Shown: positions 15,173 to 20,228 of the stretch, in pieces
Layout: each line of letters starts with the position of its first letter
Numbering within the stretch: the stretch's first letter is position 1
NCBI GenBank assembly: GCA_017643395.1
Contig: JAEPNP010000002.1
Span: 474,290 to 538,289 of the forward strand
Direction: 5' to 3'
DNA from: Rhodothermales bacterium
GTDB lineage: Bacteria > Bacteroidota > Rhodothermia > Rhodothermales > UBA10348
DNA length: 64,000 bases
Made by a program: the position numbers and the translations under genes
The notes under the pieces: model-generated
What the model saw: only the letters and a program-made list of their open reading frames with translations
Databases searched by the model: none
Told to the model about the DNA's origin: nothing

Positions 15173-17125
15173 CTACACGAGGAGCGCGTCCGTGTGAACT
15201 TCGACCAGCGCCGGTCCTTTGTGGTCGAGGGCCGCCTTCAGCATTGCATCCAGCTGCCCGTCTTCCTTCACTTCGACCCCCATCGCACCGCATTGTCGCG
15301 CGAACCTGGCGAAGGACGGGTTGCTGAGCCCCGTCTTCCAGACGTCCCACGAGCCGGCGCGTTGCTCTTTTGAGATCTTGCCCAGTTCGCTGTTGTTGAG
15401 CACCACGTGGGTAATGTTCATGTGGTACTGGACCAGGGTCGTCAACTCCGCGAGGTACTGCCCCAATCCTCCGTCGCCGGAAATCGATACTACCTGCCGG
15501 CCATGCCAGGTTGTGTCCGGTTCCTGAGTGGCCGCCCAGGCACCCATCGCTGCCGGCAAGGCATATCCGATACTGCCCAGGTAACCAGACATCAGCACAG
15601 CCTGGGACGTGGCTTCGAAGTAGCGTCCAAATGAATAGGTGTTGTTTCCCACATCCACGGCAATCACCGCGTCCGGGTCAATGTGCCGGTTCAACGCCTG
15701 GAACAACGAGGCAGAACTGATGCCGTCACCGGAGTCCTCTCCGACTCGCCGTTCCTTTTCGGCCCGCCAGATTGCCCATCGTTCCCGGATTTCGTGCGAC
15801 TGATCCTGCGCGGCAGGTTGCGTGAGTGCGTCGGCAAACATGCGCGCCGTGCGGCCGATCGCACCCATCAGGGGATGGTCGATGGCATGGAATCGCGCCA
15901 GGGCCAGCGGGTCGAAGTCAACCTGGATGGTCGGGATCTTGCTTGTGATTCCGGTGTGGTTCGAGAACGACGCACCGAACACGAGCAGCAGATCCGCCTC
16001 GTTCATGAAATAGCTGGCGATGGGCGTGCCAGACCGCCCCAGCACTCCGCAGCCGAGGGGATGATGGTCTGAAATCAGTCCCTTGCCCTTGAAGGTGGTC
16101 AGCACCGGGCACCGCAGCTTCTCGGCAAGCTCCGTTACTGCCTCCATGTCATACCGGGCCCCGTGTCCGACGATGATCACAGGTCGGCGGGCTGCCGCAA
16201 GGGCTTCCGCCGCCCGCTGAAACCCCTCTTCGGGCGGAGCGATATCGCGGTCTGGCAGGCGCCCATGGGGACTGCCCGCCTCGGCGGTCGGGGCGGGAAT
16301 GTTTTGGACCTCATCGGGAAAAATCAGGTGCGAGACTCCCCGGTTCAGGATGGCCGTGCGCGCGGCCAGATTGACCAGCTCGGCATGCCGGGAGCCGGGC
16401 AGCACGGATTGACTCCACTGCGCCACCCCACCATAGGCTGCCTGCAGGTCCACCTCCTGAAACGCGCCCGGTCCGAGGACCTGCGTATCGACCTGGCCGG
16501 TCAGTGCAATGACGGGCGAGCGGTCTACGTGGGCATCCCAAAGTCCGGTGATGAGGTTCGTGGCACCCGGCCCTGCGATGGCGAAACAGGCGGCGGGCCG
16601 CCCCGTCAGTTTCCCGTACGCCGAGGCCGCAAAGGCCGCAGCGCCTTCGTGACGGATCCCGACAAAGCGCAGCTTTCCGGACGCCTCTTGCCTCCGGAGC
16701 GCATCGGCCAAACCGAGATTGGAATGTCCAACCATACCCCAGCACGCGGAGATGCCCCAATTGACCAGGGTCTCCGCCATGACGTCCGAAACGGTGCGCT
16801 CGTGCTCAGGCTCCGGCGGCAGTTGCACGTAGACTCCGTCCGCGCGCTCCTCGACTGGGTAGGTCTCGACCCCATCGTCAAAGCCGGGGGCCTTGCCGGA
16901 GATCGGGTCGTAGTCCCAGCCGTGCCATGGGCATCGGAGCAGGCCGTTCTCTATCGAGCCTTCTCCCAACGGCCCACCTTGATGGGGACAGCGATTGTCG
17001 AGCGCCCCGTACCGTCCGTTGAACCGGGTCATGCACAGCGTGCGCAGCCCACAACTGACGGACTTGACGCGTCCGTCTGGGAGTTCATCAGGTCCCAGTA
17101 CGCGTTGCCATTCAGGTGAAGCCAT
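15173..17125 (-). CDS. Rieske [2Fe-2S]-TPP-dependent enzyme fusion
   Basis: 650 residues. Residues 1-105 are a Rieske ferredoxin domain with all four ligands (C46, H48 in CPHQGG; C65, H68 in CPWHGW). Residues 107-650 are a complete pyruvate oxidase/acetolactate synthase-type enzyme: TPP-activating glutamate in IRHEGAAAFAASAYGKLTG, AGPGATNL, a central domain with RRPVIIVGHGA, and the TPP/Mg motif SGDGGLGQYLAEL followed about 26 residues later by LNNSELG. A 2-oxo acid decarboxylase/oxidase that can hand electrons to its own Fe-S domain is the natural reading; no FAD requirement can be judged. It converges with the GMC operon, 9 bp apart. Confidence 0.9.
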   Translation of the reverse strand: MASPEWQRVLGPDELPDGRVKSVSCGLRTLCMTRFNGRYGALDNRCPHQGGPLGEGSIENGLLRCPWHGWDYDPISGKAPGFDDGVETYPVEERADGVYVQLPPEPEHERTVSDVMAETLVNWGISACWGMVGHSNLGLADALRRQEASGKLRFVGIRHEGAAAFAASAYGKLTGRPAACFAIAGPGATNLITGLWDAHVDRSPVIALTGQVDTQVLGPGAFQEVDLQAAYGGVAQWSQSVLPGSRHAELVNLAARTAILNRGVSHLIFPDEVQNIPAPTAEAGSPHGRLPDRDIAPPEEGFQRAAEALAAARRPVIIVGHGARYDMEAVTELAEKLRCPVLTTFKGKGLISDHHPLGCGVLGRSGTPIASYFMNEADLLLVFGASFSNHTGITSKIPTIQVDFDPLALARFHAIDHPLMGAIGRTARMFADALTQPAAQDQSHEIRERWAIWRAEKERRVGEDSGDGISSASLFQALNRHIDPDAVIAVDVGNNTYSFGRYFEATSQAVLMSGYLGSIGYALPAAMGAWAATQEPDTTWHGRQVVSISGDGGLGQYLAELTTLVQYHMNITHVVLNNSELGKISKEQRAGSWDVWKTGLSNPSFARFARQCGAMGVEVKEDGQLDAMLKAALDHKGPALVEVHTDALLV

Positions 17126-17214
17126 GGAAGCCGCCGGTAGGTTGGCCTCGAAGCTACGCGATCCCTGGCAGAGCGTCCGGGTTGGTAAGTCTCCTCAGCG
17201 CCACTCAGCCAGGA

Positions 17215-17499
17215 TCAGGCAGGAAGATCGGCCGTCCATGCGGGGCCGTTGGGCTTGCGCAGGCTGCCGACAAAAATCTCGTATTCGATGGCCGGGCCGT
17301 CGCACTTGAGCAAGAGCCAGCCTGTCGGCAGGTTGCCTACGATTCGACGGGCCTTTTCTTCCTCGGTGCACTCGGCCAGGAAGACCGGCGCATGCTGGAT
17401 GACAGGTACTGGCTCCGGGTTCTCCCAGGCCAGATTCAGGGTTGCTTCTCGGGTAGCGGTAGCGGACATGACACACTTGGTAACTCGCGTGTTGACCAT
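17215..17499 (-). CDS. Small unknown protein, LAWENP family (paralogue A)
   Basis: 94 residues from an ATG at 17499 directly after the leader helix; a second in-frame ATG at 17469 would remove ten residues and begin closer to the conserved part. No signal peptide or membrane segment. It shares with paralogues at 17733-18032 and 18042-18314 the order L-x-LAWENPEP, then LAEC about 14 residues later, then an A-x-RI(V/L)xxLPTGW helix, and a final IFVG strand. The regularity suggests a small alpha/beta domain of 75-80 residues. I do not recognise the family. It is preceded by its own copy of the duplicated leader. Confidence 0.8.
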   Translation of the reverse strand: MVNTRVTKCVMSATATREATLNLAWENPEPVPVIQHAPVFLAECTEEEKARRIVGNLPTGWLLLKCDGPAIEYEIFVGSLRKPNGPAWTADLPA

Positions 17500-17582
17500 G
17501 CCCGCGTAGATATGGTCGAGAAACTTCGTGCAACGCCTGGGGCGCGTACGCGGGCCAGACAAGGCCTGTCTGACCGGGCACG
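17500..17582 (-). ncRNA. Structured leader of paralogue A (putative cis-regulatory RNA)
   Basis: Reading on the minus strand: CGTGC (17582-17578), a hairpin CAGACA/TGTCTG (17572-17567 with 17561-17556), GCCCGCGTA (17555-17547), a hairpin CGCC-CCA-GGCG (17544-17534), GCACG (17531-17527) and TACGCGGGC (17508-17500) immediately followed by the ATG. The 9-bp pairing GCCCGCGTA/TACGCGGGC crosses the 5-bp CGTGC/GCACG pairing, which would give a pseudoknot ending at the start codon. The copy at 18343-18433 keeps the long elements unchanged while both hairpins change sequence but stay paired. Function unknown; a DNA-level inverted repeat is the alternative. Confidence 0.5.
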
Positions 17583-17672
17583 AAGTGGTTATCGGATTTC
17601 GGGAGACCCGATTTAAGTGCTTGTGGAAAACTCCCGGTTCGGCTGGTTCTCGGTGCAGGCACACCCCAACCG

Positions 17673-17727
17673 CGTCCGGACCCCGCGATGTTCGCGTTCC
17701 GGCAGGCTCGTCCGCGGGGTCCGGACG
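17673..17727. other. Perfect 15-bp inverted repeat between paralogues
   Basis: CGTCCGGACCCCGCG (17673-17687) and CGCGGGGTCCGGACG (17713-17727) are exact reverse complements around a 25-base loop. It lies between the end of paralogue C (17733) and the leader of paralogue A. No T-tract follows on either strand, so it is not a textbook intrinsic terminator; it may protect or attenuate the upstream transcript, or be a recombination remnant. Confidence 0.7.
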
Positions 17728-17732
17728 TTCGG

Positions 17733-18032
17733 TCAGGCAGCTCTGCGCTGCGAGCCGGTCTTGACGAGTCTCAGGGGCGTGGGTTCGGTTCCCTGGTAAA
17801 CTGCGTAGACGACCTGCTCACCGCTTCGTCTCTCCCGCACAAAGCCGGAGTCGAGCAGCCGCAGAATGTGATCTGCGTGCCGCCGACTTCGACATTCCAG
17901 AACGAGTTCCGGGTGGCTGGTGACGATGGTAGCCGGCACCGGGTTGTTCCAGACCAGCCGCAGGGGCGGCGGGCCGGAACTGTGGTGGGTCTTGGATCGC
18001 TTCTCCGGACGGAGTATTGCCGCTTCAGTCAT
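17733..18032 (-). CDS. Small unknown protein, LAWENP family (paralogue C, divergent)
   Basis: 99 residues from an ATG at 18032 with a good ribosome site (AGAGGTGAG) seven bases upstream, 9 bp after the stop of paralogue B. The core is a diverged form of the family: LRLVWNNPVP instead of LAWENPEP, LVLEC for LLAEC, then a HADHILRLLDSGF helix and VYAVYQG. The N-terminal 20 residues and the C-terminal tail are rich in Arg and Lys and differ from A and B. It has no leader of its own and is probably co-transcribed with B. Confidence 0.8.
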   Translation of the reverse strand: MTEAAILRPEKRSKTHHSSGPPPLRLVWNNPVPATIVTSHPELVLECRSRRHADHILRLLDSGFVRERRSGEQVVYAVYQGTEPTPLRLVKTGSQRRAA

Positions 18033-18041
18033 CGCTCACCT

Positions 18042-18314
18042 CTAGGCTGCCAGCCGCACGGGGTGCAGCTGTATGCGAGGAGTCTTCTGGGCACCTACGA
18101 AGACCTGAAACATCAGGCGATCGCCGCGTCGCTTTTCCACCATCCATCCGGTGGGAAGTGATTCGAGAATGCGCATGGCTTTCGAGCGATGCCGGCACTC
18201 GGCCAGCAGGATGCGCTCATAGTGGTCTACATAGGAGGGCTCGGGATTCTCCCAGGCCAGGGTCAGGTGTGAAGTGGGTGCTTCGTTGGGGAGGTTCTCT
18301 GCAAGTACGGGCAT
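18042..18314 (-). CDS. Small unknown protein, LAWENP family (paralogue B)
   Basis: 90 residues from the ATG at 18314, which lies one base after the stop of a tiny leader ORF (TGA-A-ATG). Conserved core: LTLAWENPEP, ILLAEC, SKAMRILESLPTGW, FQVFVG. Identity to paralogue A in these blocks is high while termini differ. No signal peptide, no membrane helix, and no known catalytic motif; the conserved Trp, Glu/Asn-Pro, Cys and Gly-Trp suggest a small ligand- or protein-binding domain. It is the first full gene after the leader at 18343-18433 and is followed by paralogue C. Confidence 0.8.
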   Translation of the reverse strand: MPVLAENLPNEAPTSHLTLAWENPEPSYVDHYERILLAECRHRSKAMRILESLPTGWMVEKRRGDRLMFQVFVGAQKTPRIQLHPVRLAA

Positions 18315-18315
18315 T

Positions 18316-18342
18316 TCACATGGGGGATGTGATTTCGGCCAT
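18316..18342 (-). CDS. Putative leader peptide of paralogue B (8 residues)
   Basis: The ATG that ends the conserved leader helix (GGGCATGG) opens a frame reading MAEITSPM then TGA, one base before the ATG of paralogue B. In paralogue A the same ATG is instead in frame with the protein. Either this is a translated leader peptide coupled to B, or a frameshift has separated the original start from B. Too short to judge by coding statistics. Confidence 0.35.
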   Translation of the reverse strand: MAEITSPM

Positions 18343-18433
18343 GCCCGCGTAGATATGGCCTTTATGTAGCGTGCAACGACCCCGGAGGGTCGCGTACGCG
18401 GGCCAGACACGGTAAAGTGCCAGACCGGGCACG
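18343..18433 (-). ncRNA. Structured leader of paralogues B-C (putative cis-regulatory RNA)
   Basis: Second copy of the element at 17500-17582. On the minus strand: CGTGC (18433-18429), a GGCAC/GTGTC hairpin, GCCCGCGTA (18403-18395), a hairpin CGACCC-TCCG-GGGTCG (18392-18377), GCACG (18374-18370) and TACGCGGGC (18351-18343), then ATG. The inner hairpin is 6 bp with a UUCG-like TCCG loop, versus 4 bp CGCC/GGCG in the other copy, so pairing is kept while bases change. The spacer before the final helix strand is unrelated in sequence but similar in length. The upstream 60 bp is AT-rich and likely holds the promoter. Confidence 0.5.
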
Positions 18434-18497
18434 CAATGATGTATATCGTTTACATTTACACATCCTTAAGCCCTTATCTGCAATATTTTGACAGGTG

Positions 18498-18511
18498 GTC
18501 GGTTTACCGAC
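18498..18511. terminator. Short palindrome at the end of the vWA gene
   Basis: GTCGGT-TT-ACCGAC is a perfect 6-bp stem spanning the stop codon of the vWA lipoprotein gene. On the minus strand it is followed by CACCTGTCAAAATATTG, lacking a clean T-run, so it is only a weak terminator candidate. Confidence 0.35.
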
Positions 18512-20228
18512 TCGCTGTCTGGGCCAGGCGGTCGTAGTCGTCGACGAGCGCGAGGAAGTCCGACCGGTATCCCCGGTGATCCTGTCCCTTGCCCATCCTG
18601 GCCAGCCGCCGGACCTGCTCCAGGCTGGCGGCGCCTTTGTATTCCGAGTCCCGCAGGATCATGCCGAACGCGGCGACGGCTGCCGAAAAGGCAAAATCTG
18701 CGGTGACCGCCGTGCCGCGATCCGGCTCCTGCAGCGCATGCACAATGCGCTCACTCGACTCCGAATCAGGAGCCTTGTACCGCAACTTCAGCGTCAGCAG
18801 CTCCCCGGAGGTGGCAGCGAGGGTCCTCCCCGGTGCCTGATAGCGCAACTCATCCACCGCTCTGGCTGCGCTCGATTCAACGCCCACCGGCACAAGTTCG
18901 TAAAGCGCCGTGACGGTGTGCCCAGCGCCCAGTTCTCCTGCATCTTTCGTGTCGTCGTTGAAGTCGGCGTCGGCCAGCAGCCGATTTTCGTACCCTATCA
19001 GCCGGTAGGCCTGGATGTGCGCGGGATTGAACTCGATCTGCAGCTTGACGTCCTTGGCGATGGTGTGCAGGGTGCCGCCGAGTTCGCTCACCAACACCTT
19101 GCGCGCCTCCAGCTCCGAGTCGATGTAGTAGTAGTTGCCGTTCCCGTGGTCGGCAAGCTGCTCCATCTTGTTGTCCTTCAGGTTGCCCGTGCCGAATCCG
19201 AGCACCGTGAGATAGGTGCCCTGGCGGCGGCGGTCCTCGATCAGCCGAACCAGTTCGGCGTCGCTTGACACACCGACGTTGAAGTCGCCGTCGGTGGCCA
19301 GGATTACCCGGTTGATCCCGCCGGCGATGTGGTTGCGGCGGGCCGTGTCGTACGCCAGTTGGATCCCTGCCGCCCCTGCCGTCGATCCTCCGGCCTGAAG
19401 CTGGTCCAGTGCCTTCAGAATCGTCTCCGCATTATCTCCGGAAGTAGGCGGCAGTACCATGCCGGCCGCGCCGGCGTAGACCACGATCGACACGCGATCA
19501 TTCTCTCCAAGCTCCGCGGTCAGCATGCGGAAGGCCTTCTTCAGCAGGGGCAGCTTGCTCTGCTGATTCATCGAGCCGGATACATCCAGCAGGAAGACAA
19601 GATTGCTCGCGGGGCGTCCCACAAGGTCGATTGGCGCTCCCTTCAGGCCGACGTGCAGCAGCTGGTGCTCCGCGTTCCATGGCGCCGGCCCCACCTCCAT
19701 GACGGTCGAAAATGGCTTGCCCGCCTCTGGGTTCGGATAGTCGTAAGAGAAGTAGTTGATCATCTCCTCGATGCGCACTGCGTCCCTGGGCGGCGCGATG
19801 CCGTCTCGGATGAATCGGCGCACATTGCTGTATGAGGCCGCATCCACGTCAATCGAGAACGTGGAGAGCGGATCATCCGTCACGTTGAGAAAGCCGTTCT
19901 CCCGGATACGCGTGTAGTCCTCGGTGCTGAAATCCGGGTCCCATCCCGCACGCAAGGGCGGGCGGGCAATCTGCTGCGTAGCCTGGATGGCCATGGCGTG
20001 ACCCGCCTTGACCGCCCTCTCGTAGTTGACCACGATTTCGTCCAACTGCAGACCGGTCGCGATGTCCTCCCTCTCATCCGGAGCGTTGGCCTCGGGTACC
20101 GGGACCTCGACAGTCGCCTCCGGCTCCTCTTCCGGGGCCGCTTCCTGTGCGCTCCGGGGCGCCGCGCATCCGATAAACAGAATTCCGGCAAGCAGGCCGG
20201 CCGACAGTGGTCGGAGAATCGTCTTCAT
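18504..20228 (-). CDS. von Willebrand factor A domain lipoprotein (YfbK-like)
   Basis: 574 residues. Lipoprotein signal LLAGILFIGC (Cys about residue 21), then an acidic Glu/Pro-rich linker (residues 28-55). The segment STFSIDVDAASYSNVRRFI is the N-terminal domain typical of YfbK-type proteins; the vWA domain starts near residue 207 with an intact metal-ion-dependent adhesion site, DVSGS at 215-219, plus the downstream ATDGDFNVG. The C-terminal 180 residues match the DUF3520 region that follows vWA in this family. Probably anchored in the envelope and binding another protein through Mg2+/Ca2+; the partner is unknown. Monocistronic. Confidence 0.92.
   Translation of the reverse strand: MKTILRPLSAGLLAGILFIGCAAPRSAQEAAPEEEPEATVEVPVPEANAPDEREDIATGLQLDEIVVNYERAVKAGHAMAIQATQQIARPPLRAGWDPDFSTEDYTRIRENGFLNVTDDPLSTFSIDVDAASYSNVRRFIRDGIAPPRDAVRIEEMINYFSYDYPNPEAGKPFSTVMEVGPAPWNAEHQLLHVGLKGAPIDLVGRPASNLVFLLDVSGSMNQQSKLPLLKKAFRMLTAELGENDRVSIVVYAGAAGMVLPPTSGDNAETILKALDQLQAGGSTAGAAGIQLAYDTARRNHIAGGINRVILATDGDFNVGVSSDAELVRLIEDRRRQGTYLTVLGFGTGNLKDNKMEQLADHGNGNYYYIDSELEARKVLVSELGGTLHTIAKDVKLQIEFNPAHIQAYRLIGYENRLLADADFNDDTKDAGELGAGHTVTALYELVPVGVESSAARAVDELRYQAPGRTLAATSGELLTLKLRYKAPDSESSERIVHALQEPDRGTAVTADFAFSAAVAAFGMILRDSEYKGAASLEQVRRLARMGKGQDHRGYRSDFLALVDDYDRLAQTASR

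Follow-up and report, generated by a model that had tools for sequence, protein, structure and literature searches.

The two elements that precede small paralogous genes in the 64,000-nt stretch of Rhodothermales bacterium DNA analysed here (the window) belong to a structured RNA family of about 30 mRNA leaders in Rhodothermales, which is not included in Rfam 15. We consider a riboswitch-like translational switch to be the best explanation of this leader and lean towards it by a modest degree. Tests of the switch gave mixed results, and it is a well-founded hypothesis for some of the copies and a more tentative one for the others. The initial annotation of the window had placed the two elements correctly without giving their strand. 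Both are read on the minus strand, 5′ to 3′ from 18437 to 18337 (copy 2) and from 17586 to 17494 (copy 1), and the assigned starts of the genes that follow them, termed A and C, lie 22 and 24 nt past the respective element ends. The elements consist of the following parts, and R1 and R2 denote the two covariance models of the family.

18337–18437, minus strand: leader RNA copy 2, whole element of 101 nt (R1, built from copy 2 among others, 99.5 bits; R2, 81.3 bits)
18429–18433, minus strand: 5′ arm of P1 in copy 2, pairing with 18370–18374 (covariation)
18370–18374, minus strand: 3′ arm of P1 in copy 2 (covariation)
18403–18424, minus strand: P2 hairpin of copy 2 (covariation)
18395–18402, minus strand: 5′ strand of the pseudoknot in copy 2, forming eight pairs with 18344–18351 (240 of 240 cells paired in 30 copies)
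18376–18393, minus strand: P3 hairpin of copy 2 (covariation)
18337–18360, minus strand: P4 hairpin of copy 2, the loop of which is the 3′ strand of the pseudoknot, 18344–18351 (covariation)
17494–17586, minus strand: leader RNA copy 1, whole element of 93 nt (R1, built from copy 1 among others, 98.3 bits; R2, 89.3 bits)
17578–17582, minus strand: 5′ arm of P1 in copy 1, pairing with 17527–17531 (covariation)
17527–17531, minus strand: 3′ arm of P1 in copy 1 (covariation)
17555–17573, minus strand: P2 hairpin of copy 1 (covariation and computed fold)
17547–17554, minus strand: 5′ strand of the pseudoknot in copy 1, pairing with 17501–17508 (240 of 240 cells paired in 30 copies)
17533–17545, minus strand: P3 hairpin of copy 1 (covariation and computed fold)
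17494–17517, minus strand: P4 hairpin of copy 1, the loop of which is the 3′ strand of the pseudoknot, 17501–17508 (covariation)

The family was collected with covariance models. A protein profile search for the small proteins of the window gave a single homologue each in two congeners, so that 3 of 60 genomes including the bacterium's own carried the protein family, all three from the same genus, and both congener homologues have the element at the equivalent place. R1 was built from four sequences, those of the window and the congeners, and matched in 8 of 114 genomes of the order. R2 was derived from 27 copies in the loci found by R1 and matched in 9 of 244 genomes of the class, one of which (G007) was rejected: its match (L036, 30.6 bits) lacks the 5′ strand of the pseudoknot, with 0 of 8 pairs, and is false. 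A further match, L005:681–782 (E = 0.38), was also judged false; it was aligned in alignment A6 and omitted from A7. The covariance searches yielded 30 copies in eight genomes, namely four in the bacterium's own genome, one and three in two congeners, and six, six, five, three and two in five genomes of a second family, in which the RNA is present in five of six genomes. L034 was not counted separately, being probably the same record as G002:C89. Among 394 genomes drawn from the phylum, nothing was found beyond the own genome (G000) and the false G007 match under the stricter Infernal filters used for searches of more than 40 genomes, by which weak relatives may be missed. Six pattern matches in IMG/VR reached at most 18.1 bits with R2 in their loci and were taken as chance, so that this one pattern revealed no viral copies. 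Two of the loci, L021 (G000:C3:173010–173101) and L025 (G002:C181:4549–4640), retain all eight pseudoknot pairs and are followed by short ORFs that are unclear or possibly decayed.

In this family, P1 encloses P2, the 5′ strand of the pseudoknot and P3, and is followed by a short variable linker and by P4, which puts the 3′ strand of the pseudoknot into a hairpin loop as a kissing loop. All four helices named in the initial annotation exist in both window copies, and a fifth, P4, had been overlooked; its arms, GACCAT/ATGGTC in copy 1 and GGCCAT/ATGGCC in copy 2, show a compensated difference. Of the two hairpins proposed to stay paired despite sequence differences, CGCC/GGCG versus CGACCC/GGGTCG is indeed compensated, by one C-G to A-U change and two extra pairs. 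CAGACA/TGTCTG versus GGCAC/GTGTC is not compensated between the window copies, which differ by an A-U pair changed to G-U on one side only and by a T.T mismatch that copy 2 has, but becomes strongly compensatory once further copies of the family are added. The two crossing helices, which are invariant in the window, vary in the family, with both-sided changes in four of the five pairs of P1 and four of the eight pairs of the pseudoknot. The pattern is far beyond chance, and the reading as a cis-acting regulatory RNA proposed at the outset has gained support, as the pairings hold and covary in all helices of the homologous loci.

All five helices are supported by covariation. In 27 copies, 94.7% of 829 cells pair, and 24 of 31 pairs show both-sided changes; 160 cells are changed on both sides, compared with 44.4 after shuffling and 22–35 with the partners slid. 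The corresponding numbers for 31 rows, which include the false G007 row, are 196, 52.4 and 17–35. With the false row removed, a tree-aware null, in which an equal number of changes was placed independently on a FastTree tree (a home-made test, not R-scape), gave 39.3 ± 7.2 double-sided changes with a maximum of 65 in 1000 simulations, compared with 191 observed, and 689 ± 16 paired cells, compared with 874 of 922 observed; 18 of the 31 pairs reached p < 0.05. When 3828 column pairs were ranked by covariation, the top 11 were all proposed pairs, and the best pair of the pseudoknot ranked 17th. The alignment was fitted to P1–P4, which favours those helices, and not to the pseudoknot pairs, the conserved letters of which nevertheless count in the model. 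No other helix is as conserved as the pseudoknot: although its pairs are absent from the search model, 240 of 240 cells are paired in the 30 copies, and joint changes among them include GCCCGCATA/TATGCGGGC, GCCTGCGCA/TGCGCAGGC and GTCCGCGTA/TGCGCGGAC. Taken singly, only one of its eight pairs reaches significance under the tree-aware null (p = 0.020), and three are invariant. The length of the element (92–135 nt) varies, as do P2, P3 and the linker, which argues against a coding constraint. Some unpaired letters are near-invariant, namely CGG between P1 and P2 (J1/2), preceded by C in most copies, and AUC, which opens the loop of P4. The element is a conserved, structured 5′ leader domain with covariation, as is expected of a riboswitch.

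The promoters form the second constant feature of the family. Each window copy is preceded by a sigma28-like promoter identified by motif search:

18444–18470, minus strand: sigma28-like promoter of copy 2, CTTAAG-N16-CGATA
17590–17617, minus strand: sigma28-like promoter of copy 1, CTTAAA-N16-CCGATA

Apart from these two, the window has no site of CTTAAR-N13-18-CGATA; 0.05 were expected, and two sites occurred in 1 of 100 shuffles. A recognisable promoter stands upstream of 29 of the 30 copies, 22 of them sigma28-like and seven of a second type. The pattern TTAA-N15-19-CGAT, which we take to be the sigma28/FliA consensus, was found upstream of 22 copies (shuffled mean 0.19, maximum 3), and a second box pair ending in CCGTCC, a pattern written after the sequences had been seen, upstream of seven (shuffled mean 0.01, maximum 1). 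The remaining copy, L040, fits neither pattern and has CTTAAA and CCGTCC at a shorter spacing. The seven CCGTCC-type copies are confined to two genomes of the second family (G041 and G051) and precede six Peptidase_S8 genes and one small lipoprotein-like ORF; since other copies in the same two genomes have a sigma28-like promoter, the RNA occurs behind two types of promoter. In 29 copies, P1 begins 12–28 nt past the nearest box of the CGAT or CCGTCC kind. If transcripts begin about 12 nt after CGAT here, as a general rule has it, the RNA would have its 5′ end within some 0–16 nt of P1.

Judged by sequence, 22 of the 30 copies would be members of a sigma28 (FliA) regulon. A FliA-family sigma factor above the cut-off is encoded in the bacterium's own genome, and 9 of 12 genomes searched reach the cut-off with this model, which in addition gives many matches below the cut-off, presumably to other sigma factors. 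The own genome has 16 sites of CTTAAR-N13-17-CCGATA, compared with one for the reversed control. Among the genes behind them are two for flagellin and three for Peptidase_S8, and a further site is situated about 350 nt before a FliS gene. The element is present at 2 of these 16 promoter sites and absent at 14. The own-genome S8 paralogues L053, L058 and L063 have the sigma28-like promoter without the RNA, from which it follows that the leader is modular.

The genes downstream of the window elements are small and paralogous, with sizes of 84–99 aa in the window and of 84–102 aa over the protein family:

18042–18314, minus strand: gene A, 90 aa, directly following copy 2, with weak evidence of SPOR likeness, no Pfam family
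17733–18032, minus strand: gene B, 99 aa, a paralogue of gene A, 9 nt after gene A and without a leader of its own
17215–17469, minus strand: gene C, 84 aa, after copy 1

No Pfam family was found for genes A–C, and SPOR (PF05036) was not above the cut-off. A comparison of the gene family with the SPOR proteins of the genus gave an hhalign probability of 54. The structural model of the small protein (mean pLDDT 69.6) has a beta-alpha-beta-beta core; Foldseek returned no match for it at E ≤ 0.001, with SPOR chains among the non-significant ones (E 1.4–2.1). The model and the profile comparison suggest, without proving it, a SPOR-like fold of these proteins. No export signal was seen in them by eye. 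In the neighbourhood, gene B and the copy 1 promoter are separated by a very stable G+C hairpin of about 16 bp or more (17668–17730; −42.5 kcal/mol, z −3.95), which is perhaps a boundary; a search for a T-tract terminator at this place found none. At 15173–17125 on the minus strand, a 650-aa protein is encoded in which a Rieske [2Fe-2S] domain is fused before a complete three-domain thiamine-diphosphate enzyme, with the Rieske and the three TPP domains all above the cut-off.

Across the family, an ORF start could be assigned downstream on the same strand in 29 of the 30 copies (none for L025, and L021 and L033 are unclear), 16–51 nt past the element in 28 of 29 copies and 92 nt in L033. The genes are 16 Peptidase_S8, two SPOR, four of the small family of the window, three small lipoprotein-like ORFs (two of which were scanned and had no Pfam family; L023 is the third), two pilin-like ORFs (L030, with DUF7305 below the cut-off, and L031, without a family), a 49-aa ORF (L033) and two unclear short ORFs (L021 and L025); kinds without a Pfam match were assigned by eye. 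A lipobox, searched for with a simple pattern, is found in 18 of 29 downstream proteins, including 15 of the 16 S8 proteins. The S8 peptidases (L011, L012, L018, L026, L028 and others) show, by eye, repeated hexapeptides of the KVLERY/KVIERY type between the lipobox and the protease domain, and the small lipoprotein-like ORFs L022 and L023 behind the leader contain LERYF.

How such a leader might act is suggested by its 3′ end. The leader RNA would be made from sigma28-type promoters and, in two genomes, also from the second type, and P4 presents the loop that closes the pseudoknot as a kissing hairpin. If a ligand, probably a small molecule, stabilised the fold, the 3′ strand of the pseudoknot and the arms of P4 would be occupied and the start region of the mRNA would be free, so that the switch would be ON with its ligand. 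If the fold were not stabilised, the 3′ strand of the pseudoknot or the P4 arm could pair with the spacer or the start codon, and translation would be hindered. The initial annotation had suggested a possible pseudoknot closing right at an ATG; closure at the start codon is not supported. The ATG at P4 and the pseudoknot was rejected as a conserved start codon, being replaced by other letters in 26 of 30 copies, and in copy 2 its frame stops after eight codons. Gene C shares the frame of this ATG in copy 1, where it may serve as a start.

Alternative pairings with the spacer are clearest in six copies of G041 and G051, where the 3′ arm of P4 can pair over 9–10 bp with a repeat of the P4 5′ arm further downstream, as in GGACCAGAG/CTCTGGTCC; one pair of the resulting hairpin varies between A-U, G-U and G-C, and the hairpin ends 5–7 nt before the ATG. 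Spacer hairpins are stronger than those of spacer shuffles (z < −2) in 11 of 29 copies, with a mean z of −1.64, and z is above −1 in another 11, including copy 1 of the window (z 0.03, in a test that ended at the ATG). In 20 of 29 copies, arm and spacer together fold more stably than P4 by itself, in four of them by at most 0.2 kcal/mol. Downstream pairing of the P4 arm, seen in 17 of 29 copies, is not above the null of 15.6 ± 2.5. In the window, pairing with the start codon itself is conceivable:

17462–17470, minus strand: start-codon region of copy 1, CATGTCCGC, which can pair with 17497–17505 (pseudoknot 3′ strand and P4 arm); duplex −17.2 kcal/mol, p = 0.043
18308–18314, minus strand: start-codon region of copy 2, ATGCCCG, complementary to 18341–18347 (CGGGCAT); duplex −14.9 kcal/mol, p = 0.076

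In the fold of copy 1 computed without pseudoknots, GCGGGCATG pairs with CATGTCCGC around the ATG of gene C. In copy 2, the CGGGCAT/ATGCCCG duplex is absent from the minimum-energy fold, in which P4 is intact and the spacer is self-paired. Over 29 copies, the complementarity between the region of the pseudoknot 3′ strand and the start region averages −11.83, compared with −10.58 ± 0.41 after shuffling; at least one of 300 shuffle sets was better (−11.97), and swapping the partners between copies gave −11.30, a small loss. The values for six sigma28-promoter genes without the element range from −6.9 to −12.7, and the average at 41 ATG starts of long ORFs in the window is −10.68. The complementarity is modest.

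The downstream genes share no metabolic pathway that would name a ligand. A more specific form of the switch, in which a new riboswitch class, so far in Rhodothermales only, would respond to a signal linked to motility or lifestyle, for which a nucleotide second messenger would be suitable, and control whether exported proteases and surface proteins of the sigma28 regulon are translated, with the pseudoknot strand covering the start codon, is put forward tentatively, and we would sooner doubt it than adopt it.

It is also conceivable, and in our view rather unlikely, that a protein which represses or activates translation binds the leader in place of a small molecule, as with FlbT on flagellin mRNA or the autogenous leaders of ribosomal proteins. 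The presence of several copies per genome (up to six) and their link to flagellar-type promoters would suit such a protein, and there is a precedent in FlbT, which has been proposed to bind the 5′UTR of flagellin mRNA (PMC4347634). However, CsrA was absent from 12 of 12 genomes searched (the control was positive in 3 of 14), which makes control by CsrA unlikely, and the near-invariant unpaired CGG of J1/2 and AUC of the P4 loop, together with the compact pseudoknot, would fit a ligand pocket, although this is not decisive. A passive 5′ element that shields the mRNA against degradation or keeps the translation of exported proteins at a fixed level seems improbable to us. The position near the expected transcript start and the lipobox, from which most downstream proteins look exported, speak for it; but near-invariant unpaired letters together with a conserved pseudoknot are not an obvious requirement of a passive cap, and the S8 paralogues L053, L058 and L063 manage behind the same promoter without the RNA. 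A self-cleaving ribozyme or a separate small RNA, to which a pseudoknotted RNA as compact as this one, about 95 nt with a promoter of its own, might point, is very improbable, given that no Rfam ribozyme matched (E up to 10 for the window stretch and up to 1 for six loci), that the assigned start codons follow the element so closely in all but L033, and that no terminator-like site was found at 17000–18700 of the window. The two copies in the window and the several per genome could also bring to mind a DNA segment that was duplicated or is mobile and has no function as RNA; this reading is dismissed by the compensatory changes in all helices and by the promoter, which keeps its orientation and lies within a limited distance. 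The initial annotation had regarded occurrences of the RNA without the downstream gene family as a mark of such a segment. These occurrences exist, the RNA being followed by some five kinds of genes, yet pairing, promoter and orientation are kept throughout, which indicates a modular cis-acting leader and not a duplicated DNA segment.

No family of Rfam 15 reached the gathering threshold in the window, L004 or L005. With E up to 10, four matches were obtained at 17400–18500, all far below gathering, among them RF03070, which overlaps copy 2 on the plus strand (15.6 bits, gathering 41.5, E 6.8), and none was obtained in six other loci with E up to 1. The c-di-GMP-I riboswitch was not matched in the 12 genomes, nor in the controls, which deprives this negative of weight. 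Among the literature matches listed, from which many subscription papers fall outside the scope, no paper joined Rhodothermales with a riboswitch, and no title or start of an abstract dealt with the element. In ZTP-class riboswitches, a 3′ hairpin loop closes a pseudoknot with the 5′ domain, and the gene context is folate or purine metabolism. The leader described here likewise has a folded 5′ domain, a variable linker and a 3′ kissing-loop hairpin with a 3′ arm free for alternative pairing, but it has no Rfam match and its genes encode exported and motility-regulon-type proteins rather than folate or purine functions. The name flg-Rhizobiales stands for a structured RNA near flagellar genes, and the likeness goes as far as this name. 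The motif (RF01736) is listed for Rhizobiales in a table of PMC2864571; the leader differs in having no Rfam match and in a flagellar link that lies in the promoter type, not in the genes. The flagellin leaders controlled by FlbT and CsrA/FliW also exert post-transcriptional control in motility regulons through a 5′ leader, and FlbT-type control is known in other flagellated bacteria (PMC4347634). Unlike the CsrA/FliW leaders, the family here occurs where CsrA is absent, and the two flagellin loci of the promoter search have no element.

The leaders constitute a well-supported structured RNA family that is new to Rfam 15. Behind a flagellar-type promoter, they would probably control subtilases and other exported proteins of these Rhodothermales at the post-transcriptional level. 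The 30 copies, often several in one genome, and the pseudoknotted model are a direct basis for a ligand search, structure probing and reporter experiments.
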